Source: Candidatus Saccharimonadota bacterium (lineage in GTDB: Bacteria > Patescibacteriota > Saccharimonadia > Saccharimonadales > Saccharimonadaceae). From it: 64,000 nt of DNA. Positions within the stretch are counted from its first letter, which is position 1. The number at the start of each line of letters is the position of its first letter. The DNA is taken from contig JAFRKC010000007.1 in the NCBI GenBank assembly GCA_017431955.1, positions 53,870 through 117,869 of the forward strand, in the 5' to 3' direction. The translations under genes were made by a program, and so were the position numbers. The notes below the pieces were generated by a model. The model ran no database searches and was not told the DNA's origin. It worked only from the letters and a program-made list of their open reading frames with translations. Shown here piece by piece: positions 477-64,000 of this stretch.

Positions 477-540
477 AACACATCATAATAAACTAATTCC
501 TGTCGCATTCCGGAGGTTGCTTTTGATAGGCTAATTTCGA

Positions 541-688
541 TGAATCTAGTAATTTGCTTTTGAGACCGTTCGGAGGCTACGGCCGAGAAAGAGCGCGGCT
601 CGCCCGTAACGACCGCCCCTTGGGACGTGGAAGACCGAAGGTCTACGGGCCGAGCCGACGCGTGTCTCAAAAGTAAATTACTGATTCA
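541..688. repeat. Long palindromic element (family 1), between truB and the DHH-like gene
   Basis: Outer arms 541-566 and 664-688 are inverted copies differing at about two positions. The GC-rich interior contains GGAGGCTACGGCCGAG and CCCGTAACGAC, motifs that recur in the elements at 23403, 31925 and 38979. An inner hairpin AGACC-GAA-GGTCT lies at 631-643. A 13-base block at 615-627 is repeated exactly at 33668-33680. An open frame crosses the element (440-670, minus) but looks like nothing and is taken as chance. Confidence 0.75.
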
Positions 689-698
689 CTAAATGTGT

Positions 699-14021: not shown

Positions 14022-14663
14022 ATGAACAATTTGGATTACTTGAATCAGATTTCTGCTTCCACCACTCCTCAGCCACAACAAAAATCTACTGGTGGACTTT
14101 TTTCCAAAAAATTCATCTTTATCATGGTTGGATTAGTTGTCCTTGCTATTCTTATCATGATTTTAGGCAGCATTCTCGGAAAGTCCAACCACAAAGATAA
14201 AGACGCCGTGGAGCGTGTCAGTACCCGCATTACTAATCTCATGACCATCACTCAAGACTACGGGCGAATCACTAAATCATCAAATCTACGTTCTCTTAAC
14301 GCATCTCTTTACAGTACGCTAAACAATACTTCCGTCAATCTTTCTCCTGTCATGACAACCGTATACGAAATAAACGAAGAGACCGCCAATGCCGACATCG
14401 CCGCCGAAGAAGAAGAAAACCTAAATAGCCTAAAATCCAATCTTGATTACGCCAAGCTCAACGGCCTTCTCGATCGTACTTATTCCCGCGAAATTACACT
14501 CCAAGTTAGTCTGCTCCTTTCTCTCGAAGCAGAAGCCTCCGAACGCACCAAGGATACAAACATCCAAAACATCCTCAACGAATCATACAGCAACCTTTCA
14601 ACTCTCTACACCAAATTTTCCGAATATTCTGAAGCCTCTGGCAACGTTCGCAGTTCCAACTAA
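14022..14663 (+). CDS. Unknown single-span membrane protein
   Basis: 213 residues, family not recognised. A Gln/Thr-rich cytoplasmic start of about 30 residues is followed by one strong membrane helix (FIFIMVGLVVLAILIMILG, about 31-49). The outside part is predicted to be mainly helical and rich in Ser, Asn and Glu, with no Cys. It is transcribed away from dnaG and is followed by mscL, which has its own promoter. Confidence 0.8.
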   Translation: MNNLDYLNQISASTTPQPQQKSTGGLFSKKFIFIMVGLVVLAILIMILGSILGKSNHKDKDAVERVSTRITNLMTITQDYGRITKSSNLRSLNASLYSTLNNTSVNLSPVMTTVYEINEETANADIAAEEEENLNSLKSNLDYAKLNGLLDRTYSREITLQVSLLLSLEAEASERTKDTNIQNILNESYSNLSTLYTKFSEYSEASGNVRSSN

Positions 14664-23021: not shown

Positions 23022-24314
23022 ATGAAAATCCTTGCTATCGAGAGTTCTTGTGACGAAACCGCTGCTGCAATTGTTGAGGATGGCACCAAAATTCTCTCTA
23101 ATGTTGTGGTTTCTCAAATCGATATCTTCGCTGAATACGGCGGAGTTATTCCTGAAGTTGCCGCCCGCTCCCATCTCGAAGCTATTCTCCCTGTTATTCA
23201 CAAAGCTTTAAAAGAAGCCGGCGCCACCTGGGACGATGTCGATGCAATCGCTGTCACCCACACTCCCGGCTTACTTGGCTCCCTGTTAATCGGCACTCTT
23301 ACCGCCCGCACCCTCGCTATTTTGCACCACAAACCTCTCTACGCCATTCATCACCTCAAATCTCACATCTACGCCTGCTGGCTAGAGAATGCATGTTCTG
23401 AACAGCCGGGCCATCTTCTTTCGAGGGGCATCCGCAGTCACGACGAGGACGAAGCGACGAGCCCCGTAACGACGGGAGCGAGGAGCGTCCCGAGAAAGAA
23501 CGTGGCCCAGCTGGACGAACCTACCTTTCCTCTTCTTGCCCTCGTTGTCTCTGGTGGCCACACCCAAATCCTCTACATGAAGCAGCACAATCACTTCGAA
23601 ATTATCGGCACCACCCACGACGATGCCGTTGGCGAATGTTTCGATAAAATCGCCAAAATCCTTGGTCTTCCCTATCCTGGCGGCCCATCCATCGCCAAAC
23701 AAGCCGAAAATGGCGACGAAAATCGCTACAAATTCCCTCACCCAAAGGTTAATGATCTCGATTTCTCTTTTTCCGGCCTCAAAACCGCCGTTCTTCGCGC
23801 CATCCAAAAAGAGGTTGGGGTGCCAATTTCCTACCCTTCTCATCAGCTCGCCGAACTCTTAACCGAAAAGCAAAAATCTGACTTCGCCGCCAGCTTCCAA
23901 AAAACCGCCGTAGACATTCTCTTGGAAAAACTTAATCTTGCCAAGGCAAAATACAAAGAGGCAAAATCCATCGTCATCGCCGGCGGCGTCTCCGCCAACC
24001 AAAAGTTGCGAAAAGAAGCTATTCAAAGTTTTGGAGGGAGTAAAAGCGTAGTGCAACCCAAAGAAAAAAACCAGGAAATGAACAAGGTATTTTTCTCGGG
24101 GCATCCGCAGCTGCTGCGAGGACGAAGTGAGGAGCCCCGTGAAGACGAGCGCGACGAACGTCCCGAGAAAAATACCTTGTCATTTCCGCAGTCGCGTTTC
24201 TCCGGCGACAACGCCGCCATGGTCGGCGCCGCCGCTTATTTCGAAATCAAATCTGGCGTCGAACCAACCGACCCTTATTCCCTAAACATCGCCCCTCGCT
24301 CCGACATCAACTAA
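23022..24314 (+). CDS. tsaD: tRNA threonylcarbamoyladenosine transferase TsaD with two palindrome-coded inserts
   Basis: 430 residues against about 340 in the family. With TsaB/TsaE it transfers the threonylcarbamoyl group to A37 of ANN-decoding tRNAs. The ASKHA core is complete: IESSCDETAAA at the start, the metal site HHLKSH around residue 110-115, LVVSGGHTQ at 175-183, DDAVGECFDKIAK, and SGDNAAMVGAAAYFE near 394-408. The excess is two hydrophilic inserts in frame, about residues 123-165 and 337-389. Each is encoded by a long palindromic element (23403-23513 and 24074-24187) and falls in a surface loop between conserved motifs. No stop or shift is introduced, so the protein is probably functional. 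Confidence 0.96.
   Translation: MKILAIESSCDETAAAIVEDGTKILSNVVVSQIDIFAEYGGVIPEVAARSHLEAILPVIHKALKEAGATWDDVDAIAVTHTPGLLGSLLIGTLTARTLAILHHKPLYAIHHLKSHIYACWLENACSEQPGHLLSRGIRSHDEDEATSPVTTGARSVPRKNVAQLDEPTFPLLALVVSGGHTQILYMKQHNHFEIIGTTHDDAVGECFDKIAKILGLPYPGGPSIAKQAENGDENRYKFPHPKVNDLDFSFSGLKTAVLRAIQKEVGVPISYPSHQLAELLTEKQKSDFAASFQKTAVDILLEKLNLAKAKYKEAKSIVIAGGVSANQKLRKEAIQSFGGSKSVVQPKEKNQEMNKVFFSGHPQLLRGRSEEPREDERDERPEKNTLSFPQSRFSGDNAAMVGAAAYFEIKSGVEPTDPYSLNIAPRSDIN
23403..23513. repeat. Palindromic element (family 1) inside tsaD, first copy
   Basis: Imperfect arms about 23403-23428 and 23488-23513 (GGGCCAtcTTCTTTC against the complement of GAAAGAACGTGGCCC). The core holds CATCCGCAG, CGAGGACGAAGCGA and CCCCGTAACGACGGGAGC, shared with 38979-39090. 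The reading frame of tsaD stays open through it and codes about 40 charged residues. Confidence 0.75.
24038..24059 (+). repeat. Fragment of family 2 element inside tsaD
   Basis: 22 bases starting GAGTAAAAGCGTAG are identical to the left side of the elements at 25528-25549 and 26016-26037. Here they lie just before the second tsaD palindrome and encode part of the second insert. Confidence 0.75.
24074..24187. repeat. Palindromic element (family 1) inside tsaD, second copy
   Basis: Arms 24074-24100 and 24162-24187 pair over about 26 bases with one bulged base. The core CATCCGCAG...GCGAGGACGAAG...GAGCCCCGT...GTCCCGAGA parallels the first copy. Translated in frame it gives an Arg/Glu-rich stretch such as RGRSEEPREDERDER. 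Confidence 0.85.
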
Positions 24315-25482: not shown

Positions 25483-25508
25483 TACCACTATTCTATCACT
25501 AAAAGCTT

Positions 25509-25611
25509 AAAATATAATTATTCCTTAGAGTAAAAGCGTAGTGCAACCCGAGAAAAATGAGCAAAGCGAATTTTTCCCGGCATGTAACGCTCTAAGGAAT
25601 AATTATATTTT
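25509..25611. repeat. Palindromic element (family 2), copy 1
   Basis: Perfect 22-base outer arms at 25509-25530 and 25590-25611, AT-rich (AAAATATAATTATTCC...). The inner 60 bases differ from those at 26016-26080 by one base. A second inner hairpin CCCGAGAAAAATgagcaaagcgaATTTTTCCCGG is split by its loop. Confidence 0.85.
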
Positions 25612-25999
25612 AGCTATTGAGTATAGTATTACTGTGTAGGGCGCGAAGCGCCCGAAAAAATTTTTTTTGAAAAATCCACATTTTTTACACCAACTTTTCC
25701 CCACTTCCCTCCCCCACTTCAATGCTAATTCCCTTATGTTTAGCAACCGTTTGACTTAGCATCCCGCTTGTGATAAATTAAACTTAACAATTATCACGAG
25801 AGTGGTAATTGGGAGTTAAACGCTAAAAACATAAGCATGTCAATGCTTATTAAATATAAGCGTTTATAAATCAAGCTATTTCACGTGTTCCTTCACGCGG
25901 ACATCTATTTTGTTCCCAAAAACAGGGAACTATATTATTCTGAAGAGCAAAAACTAGGTAAAAAATAAACCATTTCTAAGGGTAAAAGATCACACAAAA
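25612..25999. other. Gene-free stretch with several small hairpins
   Basis: No frame of note. Visible structures: GGGCGC-GAA-GCGCCC then A6T8 near 25640; GTGATAA/TTATCAC at about 25769-25796; ATAAGCAT-GTCA-ATGCTTAT at 25831-25850; GTTCCC/GGGAAC at 25912-25930. A long-range pairing between CTTATGTTTAGC (25733-25744) and GCTAAAAACATAAG (25822-25835) is possible. It has none of the conserved blocks of tmRNA, RNase P RNA or SRP RNA that I could see. It may be a structured RNA or a decayed insertion. Confidence 0.4.
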
Positions 26000-26096
26000 A
26001 AATAACCATCCCGAAGAGTAAAAGCGTAGTGCAACCCGAGAAAAATGAGCAAAGCGAATTTTTCCCGGCGTGTAACGCTCTAAGGGATGGTTATTT
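26000..26096. repeat. Palindromic element (family 2), copy 2
   Basis: Arms 26000-26018 and 26078-26096 (AAATAACCATCCC...) pair with two mismatches. The core is nearly identical to copy 1, but the arms are different sequence. It ends 12 bases before the valS stop codon and may also end valS transcription. Confidence 0.85.
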
Positions 26097-26107
26097 TGTC
26101 TGTTAAT

Positions 26108-31033: not shown

Positions 31034-32323
31034 ATGAAAAAAGGCACTGTTTTAACCGCTCATATCGACAAACTCATCCCTGGTGGGCAGGCTCTTGCTA
31101 CGCTCGAAAGCGGCCAGAAGGCCTTTATCTGGAATGCGCTCCCTGGAGAAGATGTCACTTTTTCTGTTACCAAAGCCAAATCTTCCTATGTCGAAGGTAT
31201 CGCCACCGAAATCAAAAACCCTAATCCTCACCGCATCGAGTCCAAAGACTCCTGTTATTTATCCACTTCCCCTTGGCAAATCATGGATTTTGACTACGAA
31301 TTAGCCCAAAAAACCGCTCTTGTCGCCGAATCTTTCCGCCAAGAGCACATCAATTTATCAGAGTTAAAACCTTGCGTTACTGACAACAACCCTTATCACT
31401 ATCGCAATAAGATGGAATACGCCCTTTATTGGGATAATGATGAGAAATGCGTTTATTTGGCCCTACACGCCCGCGGAAGCCACCGAAAAGAAAAAATAGC
31501 CATAAGTAGCTTAGAACACCCCAAAATCCTTCAGAGGGCCTTAGAAACGGTCTCAGAGCTAAATTCTCGCCACGAAGAAGCCCGTAAGTATCAATCACTG
31601 CTGCTTCGCTGTGATCAACAGGGAAACGTTTCCGGCGGTTTATTCGAAAACGGCAAACCACACCCTGTTTTTGATAATCTCACCGACGAGATTTTAGGAG
31701 TAAAATACTCCTATTCGCCTAACGGCTTCTTTCAAATCAATCTCCCAGTCTATGAACTAGCTCTAAAAGAGATCAAAAAACACATCAAAACCGATAATGT
31801 TCTCGATTTATATTCCGGTGTCGGCACCATCGGCCTCTCCGTCGCAAGAGACAAAAACCTCACCCTCGTCGAGTGCAACACCTCCGCTTACACCGAACTG
31901 GTCAAAAACTGCAAAATCACAGGTGATGAAGATATTTCTTTTCGGGAACATCCGCAGGCTACGGCCGAGGACGAGACGCCCGACACCCGCGACGGCGGGC
32001 TGGCGGGACGTCGTTTCCAGAAAGAAATATCTCATCCCTACATCACTCCTGTTTTGGCCAAATCCGAAGACGCCCTCGAATACATTTCCCCCGACCAAAC
32101 CGTCATTTTGGACCCTCCTCGCGCCGGCTGCGACAGGAAATTACTAGACAAACTCTTAGAACAAACACCTGAAGTAATCATCTACCTCTCTTGTAACCCC
32201 ACCACTCAAGCCCGAGACGTAGCCATTTTGCTACAAAAATACCGCATCAAAGATGTCACCACCTTCAATTTCTTCCCCCGCACTCCTCACATCGAAAACT
32301 TAGTTATTTTGGAAAAACTCTAA
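31034..32323 (+). CDS. RNA 5-methyluridine methyltransferase (RlmD/RumA type) with a palindrome-coded insert
   Basis: 429 residues. An N-terminal TRAM domain (GGQALATLESGQKAFIWNAL, PGEDV) is followed by a central RNA-binding part and the SAM domain LDLYSGVGTIGLSVA near residue 258. DPPRAGCD lies at about 360, and the catalytic Cys at 387 in YLSCNPTTQARD. It methylates a uridine in 23S rRNA or tRNA. Residues about 298-334 are an extra Arg/Asp/Glu-rich stretch encoded by the palindromic element 31925-32036, placed between the SAM strand VECNTSAYTELVKNC and the next conserved part. The frame is intact. The exact target base is not decided; the Cys cluster for an iron-sulfur site is not visible. 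Confidence 0.92.
   Translation: MKKGTVLTAHIDKLIPGGQALATLESGQKAFIWNALPGEDVTFSVTKAKSSYVEGIATEIKNPNPHRIESKDSCYLSTSPWQIMDFDYELAQKTALVAESFRQEHINLSELKPCVTDNNPYHYRNKMEYALYWDNDEKCVYLALHARGSHRKEKIAISSLEHPKILQRALETVSELNSRHEEARKYQSLLLRCDQQGNVSGGLFENGKPHPVFDNLTDEILGVKYSYSPNGFFQINLPVYELALKEIKKHIKTDNVLDLYSGVGTIGLSVARDKNLTLVECNTSAYTELVKNCKITGDEDISFREHPQATAEDETPDTRDGGLAGRRFQKEISHPYITPVLAKSEDALEYISPDQTVILDPPRAGCDRKLLDKLLEQTPEVIIYLSCNPTTQARDVAILLQKYRIKDVTTFNFFPRTPHIENLVILEKL
31925..32036. repeat. Palindromic element (family 1) inside the rlmD-like gene
   Basis: Arms 31925-31949 and 32013-32036 pair over about 24 bases (GATGA-GATATTTCTTT conserved). The core CATCCGCAGGCTACGGCC then GAGGACGAGACG matches the interiors at 541-688 and in tsaD. 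A nested CCCG/CGGG hairpin is near 31980-32000. Confidence 0.85.
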
Positions 32324-33526: not shown

Positions 33527-33633
33527 ATTAATTCGTAAGAAAAATCGGCTAGATTAGTGTTTTCTTCGAGTGAAACGCTATTATTGATAGAGTGAACGAG
33601 AAAAAACGCTAAAGTAGCCGATTTTGATACGAA
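33527..33633. repeat. Long palindromic element next to a tRNA-Arg fragment
   Basis: Arms about 33527-33570 and 33592-33633 pair with several mismatches: AATTCGTA..AAAATCGGCTA..TTAG.GTTTTCTTCG against its complement on the right. The middle holds GAGTGAAACGCTATTATTGATAGAGTGAACGAG. The right end touches the duplicated tRNA-Arg piece at 33635. Confidence 0.7.
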
Positions 33634-33634
33634 T

Positions 33635-33664
33635 TTGGTATGCCCGGCACGATTCGAACGTGTG
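33635..33664 (-). repeat. 30-base duplicate of the tRNA-Arg 3' end
   Basis: Identical to 33725-33754: encoded CCA, acceptor strand, T loop and part of the T stem of tRNA-Arg. The rest of a tRNA is absent, so this is not a gene. The following 33668-33680 block equals 615-627 in another hairpin element. Confidence 0.85.
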
Positions 33665-38978: not shown

Positions 38979-39090
38979 TATAGTCCCTTTGTCTCGGCAA
39001 TGTCCGGAGGTCACGACCGAGGATGAAGGCCCCGAAGCCCCGTAACGACGGGAGCAAAGGAGGCCGGTCGCCAAGACAAAGGACTATTTT
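38979..39090. repeat. Palindromic element (family 1) behind groEL
   Basis: Arms around 38980-38998 and 39071-39090 (TAGTCC.TTTGTCT.GG). The core has TGTCCGGAGGTCACGACC, CGAGGATGAAGG and CCCCGTAACGACGGGAGC, the last shared with tsaD copy 1. A run of T follows the right arm, so it can also end groEL transcription. Confidence 0.8.
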
Positions 39091-42197: not shown

Positions 42198-42584
42198 TTA
42201 TTTTATATTTGCTAAAACAAAGTTTACAATTGCGAAAGCAAGAATTGCCACAATAAGACCAATAATACCATACATGATGGTGTCCTTTGCTTTTTTCACC
42301 TTGCCTGCATCACCGGCAGAAGTTGTATAAGTGATACCACCGATAATAATCATGATCACGGCTAGGAAGCCGACGATACCGATAATCACATTAATAACAG
42401 TGGTGAATGTATCGCTTAAGTTTTGGTCCTTATACTCTGCATTTTTATATTCAGGACAAGTACTCATATTTGTCGTTTGTGTACCATCAAGACAAGTCCA
42501 TGCTGAGACTGGAGCTGCCATAGCAAATGATGCAGCTACCGCCACTGCTAAACCTAACGTCTTTACTATATTCATTTTTTTCAT
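42198..42584 (-). CDS. VirB2-like pilin-type protein
   Basis: 128 residues. Signal peptide (about 1-28, cut near VSA-WT), an outside part with two Cys (CLDGTQTTNMSTCPEY), then helices at about 58-82 and 101-124. The loop GGITYTTSAGDAGKVKKAKD is almost the same as in the next gene upstream. One of a tandem set of four on this strand, probably recent duplicates. Confidence 0.83.
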   Translation of the reverse strand: MKKMNIVKTLGLAVAVAASFAMAAPVSAWTCLDGTQTTNMSTCPEYKNAEYKDQNLSDTFTTVINVIIGIVGFLAVIMIIIGGITYTTSAGDAGKVKKAKDTIMYGIIGLIVAILAFAIVNFVLANIK

Positions 42585-42646
42585 TATTGCTTTTCCTTTC
42601 TTATTGTTTTTAGTATACTATCATTTTTTTAATATTACAACTTTAT

Positions 42647-43036
42647 TTATAGGTTCCCGAGCACAAAGTTTACAATCGCGAAAGCCAAAATTGCCACTAC
42701 TAAACCAATCAAACCATAGATAATCGTGTCTTTAGCCTTCTTAGCCTTGCCTGCATCACCAGCAGAAGTAGCATACATAATACCGCCAACGATAATCATA
42801 ATTATAGTGATAAACCCGACAATACCAATAATTACATTAACAACATTTGTCATGGTGTTCATTAGTGCATTATCATCTGTAGTATCACCCGGACAATTAG
42901 CCTTACTATCCACCAGCTCACCCTTCTTGGGGCCCTCTGCGCAAGTGTAATAAGCGCTCACTTTTGGCGCCAATGCTACTACCGATAAGGCAACCATCGC
43001 TACTAATGTCAATATTACTAAAATTCTTTTCTTCAT
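42647..43036 (-). CDS. VirB2-like pilin-type protein
   Basis: 129 residues with the same plan: signal peptide ending VSA-YY, two Cys (CAEGPKKG..CPGD), two helices and loop GGIMYATSAGDAGKAKKAKD. The C-terminal helix ends AILAFAIVNFVLGNL, nearly the same as in the 42198 gene (ILAFAIVNFVLANI). The Cys pair probably forms a disulfide outside the cell. Confidence 0.83.
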   Translation of the reverse strand: MKKRILVILTLVAMVALSVVALAPKVSAYYTCAEGPKKGELVDSKANCPGDTTDDNALMNTMTNVVNVIIGIVGFITIIMIIVGGIMYATSAGDAGKAKKAKDTIIYGLIGLVVAILAFAIVNFVLGNL

Positions 43037-43084
43037 TTATTCTCCTTATGTTTATCCTACCACTTTAAAAAACTCTTCGCAAGC

Positions 43085-43468
43085 TTAAAACGCCCCTGCA
43101 AGCACAAAGTTCACCAACGCAAACGCCGAAAGCACTATCATTAGCCCAATTGCACTATAAAGTATCGTATCTTTGGCTTTCTTTGCTTTGCTAGGATCAC
43201 CAGATGACGTCGCATAGTTTATGCCGCCAATCACAATCATTAGCACCGCAATTATACCTATCACCCCAATTACCGCATTAATAATGCCTACGGCCACACC
43301 TGGAGCTTCCTTAGTGTTGCTACATCCAATCTCTTTCTTATATTTCGCATCAACATTACTGTCCCGGCAAATGCTTTCTTTCCAAGTCTCTTCCGCAAAA
43401 ACTGGGCTCATCGCACTCAAACAGCATATCCCCGAAAGTACCGCTAAAATCAAAAACTTTTTCTTCAT
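43085..43468 (-). CDS. VirB2-like pilin-type protein
   Basis: 127 residues. Signal peptide ends VFA-EE, followed by two Cys, helices and loop GGINYATSSGDPSKAKKAKD. The TGDP-like loop is closer to the double-domain gene upstream than to the other two. Its ATG is two bases beyond the stop codon of the 43470 gene, so the two are translated from one message. Confidence 0.83.
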   Translation of the reverse strand: MKKKFLILAVLSGICCLSAMSPVFAEETWKESICRDSNVDAKYKKEIGCSNTKEAPGVAVGIINAVIGVIGIIAVLMIVIGGINYATSSGDPSKAKKAKDTILYSAIGLMIVLSAFALVNFVLAGAF

Positions 43469-62559: not shown

Positions 62560-64000
62560 AATTAAAGCGCTCATTTCGCTCATACCTACCACTAATTTTA
62601 TTTATTTTCGTAGCCACAGCTACGTTTACATTCTTTGTTACTAAGAATCCAGAAGGTACTTCCGCTGCTTCGCTAGCCAATTTTAAACCAGGCAATATTA
62701 TCAGCGACTACACCATGAGCAACTACAACTCCATGAGCGAGGCCGATATTCAAAACTTCCTAAAGTCCAAAAACTCCTGCAACGACACCAGAATGTATCT
62801 CAATAGCCAATATCACCATGTTAAAGACGGGCATTTCGTCTGTCTTGCCGACGAAACTTTCGGCGATGGCGTCGATTATGGCGACAGCGCACCAAACGGC
62901 CAAAGCGCCGCACATATCATTTGGCAAGCAGCACAAGATTACAAAATCAACCCGCAAGTTTTGATCGTGCTCCTGCAAAAAGAGCAGGGCTTGATTACTG
63001 ATACATTTCCAAACTCTATTCAATATCGCTCTGCCACCGGTTATGGCTGCCCAGATACGGCTGCCTGTAACACCAAATACTATGGCTTCAAAAACCAAGT
63101 CAGAAACGCTGCCGCACTCTTCCGTACAGTGCTAAATGGCGGCTGGACCAACTACCCAGTAGGCAACAACTATATTCAATACAATCCAAACGCCGATTGT
63201 GGCGGTTCTGTAGTATATATCGAAAACTTAGCCACCTCTTCACTTTATCGCTATACTCCATATCAACCAAACGCTGGCGCACTTGCCGCTGGCTACGGCA
63301 CCGCCGCCTGCGGCGCCTACGGCAACCGCAACTTCTATCTCTATTTCAGCGACTGGTTCGGCGACCCAACCTCTGATGGCTGGCCTAGCCTAGCAAAAAT
63401 TTTATCCAGTATGAATAAGCCAAACAAAGAAGATTCCGAATTAAATCTTAAATATCACTCATATGTTCAGCACTATGGCTGGCTTGATTGGGCTGATGGC
63501 GGGGATACGAGCGGAACAACCGGTTACTCGTTAAGGCTAGAGGCGCTAGCTATGAAACTTCAAAATGAATATCTTGGAGGTATAGAATATAGGACTCACC
63601 TACAAAGCTATGGATGGGGAGAATATAAAAGCAACGGCGAAATTAGTGGAGCACCAGACGAATCATTAAGAATGGAGGCTGTACAGATTAGACTAACTGG
63701 AGATGCATCTAAACTCTATGATATCTATTACAGAACACACGTTCAAGGTATTGGCTGGATGGATTGGGCCAAAAATGACGAGATATCTGGAACTACCGGC
63801 CAATCTAAGCGCATAGAAGCCTTACAGGTTAAGATAGTAAGGAAGCATTCAAGCTATGGTCCAAAATACCTTACACATGTCCAAGGTATCGGCTGGATGG
63901 ATTGGGCCAAAAACGGTGAGACAGCCGGAACCACTGGTCAATCCAGACGTGTAGAAGCGATTGAAATTAAACTATCAGACGATTTAGCAAACAAATACAA
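62556..64000 (+). CDS. Secreted ChW-repeat protein with lysozyme-like domain (cut by window edge)
   Basis: The frame is open to the right edge, 481 codons. Signal helix at about 10-33. The next 230 residues contain SAAHIIWQAAQDYKINPQVL, then LLQKEQGLITDTFPNSIQYR and TGYGCPDTAACNTKYYGF; this block occurs in secreted wall-active proteins of Gram-positive type and looks lysozyme-like. Then come four ChW (clostridial hydrophobic W) repeats from about residue 300, each with a GW..W core as in THVQGIGWMDWAKNGE and GTTGQSKRIEALQ. ChW repeats are thought to bind surfaces. The repeat part has G exceeding C, unlike the N-terminal half. Confidence 0.85.
   Translation, partial: MKLKRSFRSYLPLILFIFVATATFTFFVTKNPEGTSAASLANFKPGNIISDYTMSNYNSMSEADIQNFLKSKNSCNDTRMYLNSQYHHVKDGHFVCLADETFGDGVDYGDSAPNGQSAAHIIWQAAQDYKINPQVLIVLLQKEQGLITDTFPNSIQYRSATGYGCPDTAACNTKYYGFKNQVRNAAALFRTVLNGGWTNYPVGNNYIQYNPNADCGGSVVYIENLATSSLYRYTPYQPNAGALAAGYGTAACGAYGNRNFYLYFSDWFGDPTSDGWPSLAKILSSMNKPNKEDSELNLKYHSYVQHYGWLDWADGGDTSGTTGYSLRLEALAMKLQNEYLGGIEYRTHLQSYGWGEYKSNGEISGAPDESLRMEAVQIRLTGDASKLYDIYYRTHVQGIGWMDWAKNDEISGTTGQSKRIEALQVKIVRKHSSYGPKYLTHVQGIGWMDWAKNGETAGTTGQSRRVEAIEIKLSDDLANKY

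Follow-up and report, generated by a model that had tools for sequence, protein, structure and literature searches.

Palindromic elements with locus-private arms read in frame in tsaD and other housekeeping genes of a Saccharibacteria genus

Why does the tsaD gene of this Saccharibacteria genome encode a protein of 430 residues, and what are the palindromes that it contains? The gene occupies 23022..24314 on the forward strand of the window, the whole 64,000-nucleotide stretch of DNA that was analysed, and is a single frame without a stop, matching TIGR03723 with an E-value of 9.9e-111. A sequence-only reading of the window had described this open frame and had placed two palindromes in it, both of which are found at those places. 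Insert 1 (23403..23513, +) lies at the position termed TsaD site 125 and insert 2 (24074..24187, +) at site 299. Both are palindromes with a class A core, matched at 23414-23504 (105.9 bits) and 24087-24177 (105.6 bits), respectively, by R1, a covariance model made from seven class A inserts, whose E-values are rough and which was applied to genomes that are mostly metagenome-assembled. On folding, the palindrome of insert 1 (about 23400-23516) has a z of -5.3 and that of insert 2 (24074-24187) a z of -6.6, and none of 200 shuffles was equally stable in either case.

The sequence-only reading had attributed the whole excess of TsaD to the two palindromes. The two inserts stand, but the extra residues before insert 2 belong to the 5′ half of a palindrome of another class, B (24038..24067, +), which adjoins the insert and, over 30 nt, has 90% identity with 25528-25557 and 26016-26045, with an exact 22-mer. 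Judged by its sequence, this half seems to be the remnant of an element overwritten by insert 2. Class B palindromes, with the core GAGTAAAAGCGTAGTGCAACCC, form a second family with two whole copies in the window: one at 25508..25612 (+; perfect 23-nt arms, z -9.2), crossed by no ORF of at least 100 amino acids, and one at 25999..26097 (+), outside long ORFs, with a similar-armed copy at L011:7704-7813. Fragments of this class are read in frame in der (locus L004) and in the tsaD of locus L032.

Further palindromes and repeats are present in the window. A long palindrome at 531..697 (+) is class A-like by eye only and has no R1 match at E 0.001, and a long, AT-rich palindrome (33530-33640, z -7.6), different in type, lies near a tRNA gene. 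A repeat of about 188 nt occurs three times at 42217-43291, spaced about 440 nt, a 105-nt repeat occurs twice at 63716-63958, 138 nt apart, and a promoter-like motif ending TGTGCTATAAT recurs at 14661, 22347, 29789, 40429 and 44334. Over a larger set of 863,706 bases, a palindrome census that allowed no G-U pairs counted 60 at a threshold of 13, where a Markov control had 3, and 123 against 59 at a threshold of 10; lower thresholds separate poorly. Two other forms of census were discarded, an ungapped palindrome search as too strict (20 elements) and local RNA folding with G-U pairs for too high a control (103 versus 227).

The alignment of TsaD from relatives, named beforehand as a test of the insertion claim, comprised 81 proteins of 339-458 amino acids: that of the window and those of the best 80 of 94 loci found. 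By title these 80 loci are Saccharibacteria, except one ‘uncultured bacterium’ and one Candidatus Nanosyncoccus, and many are from rumen or intestine. Extra stretches of at least 5 residues occur at three places only, and stretches of at least 20 residues between conserved anchors are found in 42 of the 81 proteins at site 125, in 8 at site 193 and in 15 at site 299. Because 29 of the 81 have no extra stretch of at least 5 residues and the native loop at the first site (125) is most often 7 residues long, the excess residues are insertions, in frame as had been claimed; relatives without the palindromes also lack the residues. By a scripted test, 58 tsaD inserts adding at least 40 nt show a long outer stem (only passing inserts were counted), and several core families are represented among the inserts listed for relatives. 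Inserts sharing a tsaD site are similar in direct orientation in 53 pairs and inverted in 2, both at site 125 and between more distant relatives. A larger palindrome family, often with a core of about 117 nt nested between two arm sets and without an R1 match, occupies site 125 in L034, L035, L036, L040, L051, L057, L061, L069 and L080.

The core is not confined to tsaD. The covariance-model search of the whole genome proposed earlier returned 14 R1 copies at E ≤ 0.1 (the weakest at 4.1e-4), with further copies across the genus. Given these copies, and relatives that have neither palindromes nor extra residues, neither of the two outcomes set in advance as refutations was observed. Twelve of the 14 lie inside ORFs, two each in tsaD and obgE and one each in mnmA, leuS, gatB, ileS, alaS, ligA and tatD- and rlmD-like genes; hosts, including der above, carry their best NCBIfam names, the scores being below curated cut-offs for TatD, RlmD and the typed fragments of gatB, ileS, alaS and ligA. 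The sequence-only reading had described the elements sharing the tsaD core as intergenic. Further copies do exist, but the one at 31930..32032 (+; R1 48.8 bits at 31934-32030) is read in frame inside an rlmD-like gene (31034-32317), an open frame of 428 amino acids whose best family is TIGR00479 (E 4.8e-47, below its cut-off). The class A element at 38985..39085 (+; R1 36.2 bits; L131) lies outside long ORFs, the longest flanking ones stopping 16 nt before it and beginning 14 nt after it.

Across the genus, scanned under tighter filters and with no more than 24 candidates scored in each genome, R1 matches are present in 155 of 175 genomes and in 99 of the 111 good ones; the model also matches inserts of relatives in the opposite orientation. 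In the phylum sample they occur in 7 of 379 genomes: the window's own, three of the genus, two of the family and one elsewhere. The last (G410:C32:5485-5602, L168) is a lone weak match (E 1.4e-5) in a distant genome and possibly reflects chance or transfer. Phages and plasmids, each searched with one 95-99-nt query, gave no match. Carriage by either was rejected as a candidate: with R1, none of eight exact pattern matches in viral contigs scores above 13.6 bits, and they look fortuitous.

After 14 second views of one place and one exact duplicate are removed, 137 R1 matches represent 122 elements. Of these, 105 are flanked on either side by 40 or more open codons in frame, 16 are not and one is at an edge; among the loci from whole-genome model scans (L121-L178), 57 of 73 elements are in open frames. 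The inserts encode a shared predicted peptide, EGHPQxLRGRSEEPREDGRDERPEE. Hairpin-forming elements inside essential genes might instead be removed after transcription or skipped in translation, by splicing or by bypassing of the kind that the available text of PMC6649704 mentions for Magnusiomyces mitochondria. The open frames through 105 of 122 elements, and through both core orientations in obgE described below, count against this because removal needs no open frame, and the tblastn segments keep to one frame in each of 84 tsaD-bearing loci, among which the window's own gene appears repeatedly. We consider removal or skipping highly improbable.

Compared across copies, the element is made up, in sequence, of a GC-rich core of about 70 nt that is predicted to form short hairpins, a partly shared inner arm of about 8-13 nt, and outer arms private to each locus. 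Insert 2 of tsaD and the copy in mnmA, for example, have near-identical cores and unrelated arms, and each pair of arms pairs. Among 39 tight class A copies, which include orthologous ones, the arms of one copy pair over about 23 nt on average and are unlike those of other copies: pairing is 0.74-1.00 at pairs 2-22 and 0.69 at pair 23, and 0.05-0.26 at pairs 8-23 when the partner arm is taken from another copy. The commonest arm base, counted without gaps and so lowered, is mostly above 0.5 at the inner pairs, reaches up to 0.74 at pairs 8-13 and is mostly 0.3-0.55 from about pair 14 outward.

Strong folds (z -5 to -9) and compensatory arm changes are what would be expected of hairpins kept as functional mRNA structures, such as processing sites, attenuators or regulatory RNA. 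The arm cells of 103 coding elements comprise 2368 Watson-Crick, 93 G.U, 95 A.C and 189 other combinations; as G.U is not favoured over A.C on the coding strand (p 0.94), pairing is kept at the level of DNA and not through RNA folding. The cores in tsaD also lie in both orientations (5 plus and 19 minus, counted from R1 matches, frame-based sense being loose where several frames are often open), and one core is inverted in situ in obgE. At gathering score, Rfam finds five tRNAs only in the window, and its best match at the tsaD inserts is a weak 25.5 bits against a 70-bit cut-off. A role as functional RNA is therefore very unlikely. Between tsaD inserts of similar sequence, 293 arm pairs have changed on both sides and remain Watson-Crick, where independence would predict about 40; a further 66 double changes destroy the pairing, and 296 changes are single; this count is descriptive, because the allele pairs overlap and are not independent.

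Turnover of the elements was followed in three close species pairs (G563/G564, G565/G566 and G567/G568) with 56 R1 elements. Twenty-four of these, at 12 sites, have a partner element at matching flanks; many elements are therefore simply inherited, a point against the reading favoured below. The other 32 were followed up. In G563/G564 and G567/G568, 18 sites were queried and 17 partner stretches, some of them outside genes, were read by eye: 2 are empty (L200, L228), 1 has an inverted core (L208), 1 is without a clear palindrome (L217) and 13 hold another or a hybrid insert. The eighteenth site (L190) has one weak flank match in the partner. The inverted case lies in obgE, where the 78-nt cores of L208 and L250 are identical at 75 of 78 positions as reverse complements, the direct orientation giving a broken alignment (44 of 59, with 38 gaps), and the flanks are identical at 106 of 117 and 99 of 117 positions. 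Both orientations are in frame, and 26 codons are inverted. L233 and L248 share their outer arms but not their core, and in L201/L243 a new element stands in place of half of an older core, resembling insert 2 over the class B element.

In G565/G566, L090 is empty at two sites that are filled in L033, and of 12 further sites the six whose spacing suggested an empty site were aligned. All six are indeed empty, shorter by 84-123 nt and always by a multiple of three; the frame is open in both alleles at five of them and not at L213. By family search the host fragments are of valS, priA, leuS and trmD, and that of L188 has no match. Taken together, the comparisons show, at the level of sequence, that in close relatives one site can keep its element, be empty, or hold another, a hybrid or an inverted core.

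Re-use of the same sites by many cores, and the one inversion and 13 other or hybrid inserts among 17 stretches, might point to adaptive switchable loops, with selection favouring inversion and exchange of cores as a source of protein variation. The named hosts, however, are housekeeping enzymes and not surface proteins, and no recombinase was found by a search for Y1 alone. Unused frames are no more open than in dinucleotide shuffles (0.510 versus 0.525), so that special stop avoidance is not supported and the cores are readable through their high GC, not through special design. We give selection for switchable loops very little credence.

Filled and empty pairs that resemble simple insertions, six of them differing by the lengths given above, would also fit a conventional miniature inverted-repeat transposable element (MITE), with a transposase in trans recognising the inner arm and moving the core, and the outer arms secondary. 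The core and the inner arm of about 8-13 nt are common to unrelated loci, and the inner arm could be the transposase end. The outer arms, however, are not common to the copies; Y1_Tnp, the one transposase family searched, has matches in 8 of the 172 genomes scanned for it in the genus and none in the window's own, against R1 in 155 of 175; and no clear target duplication was seen by eye in ten filled/empty comparisons (two at L033, L200, L228 and the six G565/G566 sites), a start-codon repeat at L228 being doubtful. Such an element is an unlikely explanation, although less so than those considered above.

The ten comparisons also bear on where the arms come from. Were each insertion to build its arms from the target, the empty allele should already contain an arm. 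This is clear in the tsaD of L033 and L090, where the empty allele has the 18-nt 3′ arm, of which the 5′ arm is an inverted copy. It is the one comparison of the ten in which the empty allele holds a whole arm; the other nine hold at most a few nucleotides of it, at flank identities of 75-94%. In the obgE of L092, L095 and L096, the palindrome extends at its 3′ side into conserved Ala-Asp-Leu codons, which the 5′ arm mirrors, and between L092 and L095 the 5′ arm tracks synonymous changes of those codons. Regressing the net length of tsaD inserts on the lengths of core and arms did not separate the addition of one arm from that of both. With an arm in only one of ten empty alleles, an inverted duplication arising at insertion deserves serious consideration but is not a finding; upkeep of arm pairing after insertion is the better supported of the two by the sequences.

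What the sequences show is in-frame copies, paired private arms, concerted arm change, no RNA signature and turnover at sites. The reading that we favour, with moderate confidence, is that these are mobile coding palindromes with a lifestyle like that of Rickettsia palindromic elements (RPEs), whose arms and cores are remodelled by template switching during replication. The agent that we infer is switching between the arms of the hairpin: copying of one arm onto the other would homogenise and lengthen the arms, a switch between the arms would flip the spacer, and a switch to the template of another element would replace the core. In yeast genes, template switching between inverted-repeat arms homogenises the arms and inverts spacers, according to the available text of PMC8604942. 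Arm homogenisation is present here as a sequence pattern, as template-switch remodelling predicts, and spacer inversion between intact arms has one clear case, L208/L250. Weighing against template switching are this single inversion among 17 partner stretches and the imperfect pairing of the arms (2368 Watson-Crick against 377 other cells). Persistence of the insertions may be explained by their being in frame and hydrophilic, by a high GC content that keeps them readable and by their position in tolerant places; they are probably selfish or neutral.

SbcD is part of a nuclease that cuts long palindromes, and loss of SbcCD was tried as a cause and rejected. SbcD exceeds its cut-off in none of 119 genus genomes and in only 8 of 192 genomes sampled from the phylum (12 and 27, respectively, have some match at E 0.001); as it is also rare in that sample, its absence would be permissive at most.

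Beyond remodelling by template switching, we tentatively raise the possibility that the elements are mobile DNA that spreads without a transposase. The core would spread by template switching at short homologies, the arms would be inverted copies of the target flank, and the hairpins would keep growing, flipping and swapping cores. If so, essential proteins throughout a bacterial genus would have their loops continually rewritten by an artefact of DNA copying.

In either form, the elements matter as a genus-wide in-frame invasion of housekeeping genes by palindromes. Private arms, DNA-level upkeep and the 26-codon inversion in ObgE between close relatives make the mechanism testable, and would offer a natural system for the creation of protein sequence by template switching. 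They also call for caution in annotation and in core-gene trees (tsaD, obgE, leuS, valS) of these bacteria.

To our knowledge, in-frame invasion of genes by palindromes is otherwise familiar only from Rickettsia, where the arms of the palindromic elements share sequence across family members. In the present elements, by contrast, the arms go on pairing beyond the stretch, from pair 8 to about pair 14, over which their conservation declines toward background. RPEs, as described in the available parts of PMC10969869 and PMC1950309, are palindromes of about 100-150 bp found in frame in many unrelated genes and belonging to several families; they are said in that of PMC6649704 to lose their repeat identity over time. 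The elements described here resemble them in being multi-copy palindromes of about that length (14 copies, folding) that lie in frame in unrelated genes (tsaD, mnmA, tatD-like, obgE, leuS, gatB and others) with a shared peptide and that fall into several families, and differ in the phylum of the host, in the in-place inversion of a core and in core exchange. RPEs were thus aptly named as the nearest parallel by the sequence-only reading, but the likeness is one of lifestyle and does not establish membership of the family, because the outer arms here are locus-specific and kept up at the DNA level.

Two other systems have actively maintained arms or inverted spacers in coding DNA. In nematomorph mitochondria, long inverted repeats lie in functional genes, their arms are actively kept identical and template switching has been proposed (available text of PMC6649704). 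As in the present elements, these are coding palindromes with maintained arms; there, however, the protein encoded by both arms is conserved and native, and no mobile core is described in the text at hand, whereas here a multi-copy core adds residues. In coding DNA of yeast, too, arms are homogenised and spacers inverted, there by template switching (PMC8604942, available text), but the yeast inversions change 2-5 bp, against 78 nt (26 codons) in an essential GTPase gene here, where the spacer is itself a repeat family. MITEs and REP/RAYT systems are likewise short, multi-copy inverted-repeat DNA without a gene of its own. The present elements differ from MITEs in having no conserved full-length terminal repeats, only an inner arm of about 8-13 nt that is partly shared, and no target duplication that was clear by eye in the ten comparisons, and from REP/RAYT in having no Y1 (RAYT) partner in their own genome. 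Among the matches listed from the open-access literature, to which subscription papers and bioRxiv do not belong, there is no report of such elements in Saccharibacteria or Patescibacteria, in line with the sequence-only reading, to which no description of in-frame palindromes in Saccharibacteria-type genomes was known. On sequence grounds, the elements are set apart from the known kinds by private arms with DNA-level upkeep, by core exchange and by an in-frame inversion of 26 codons.
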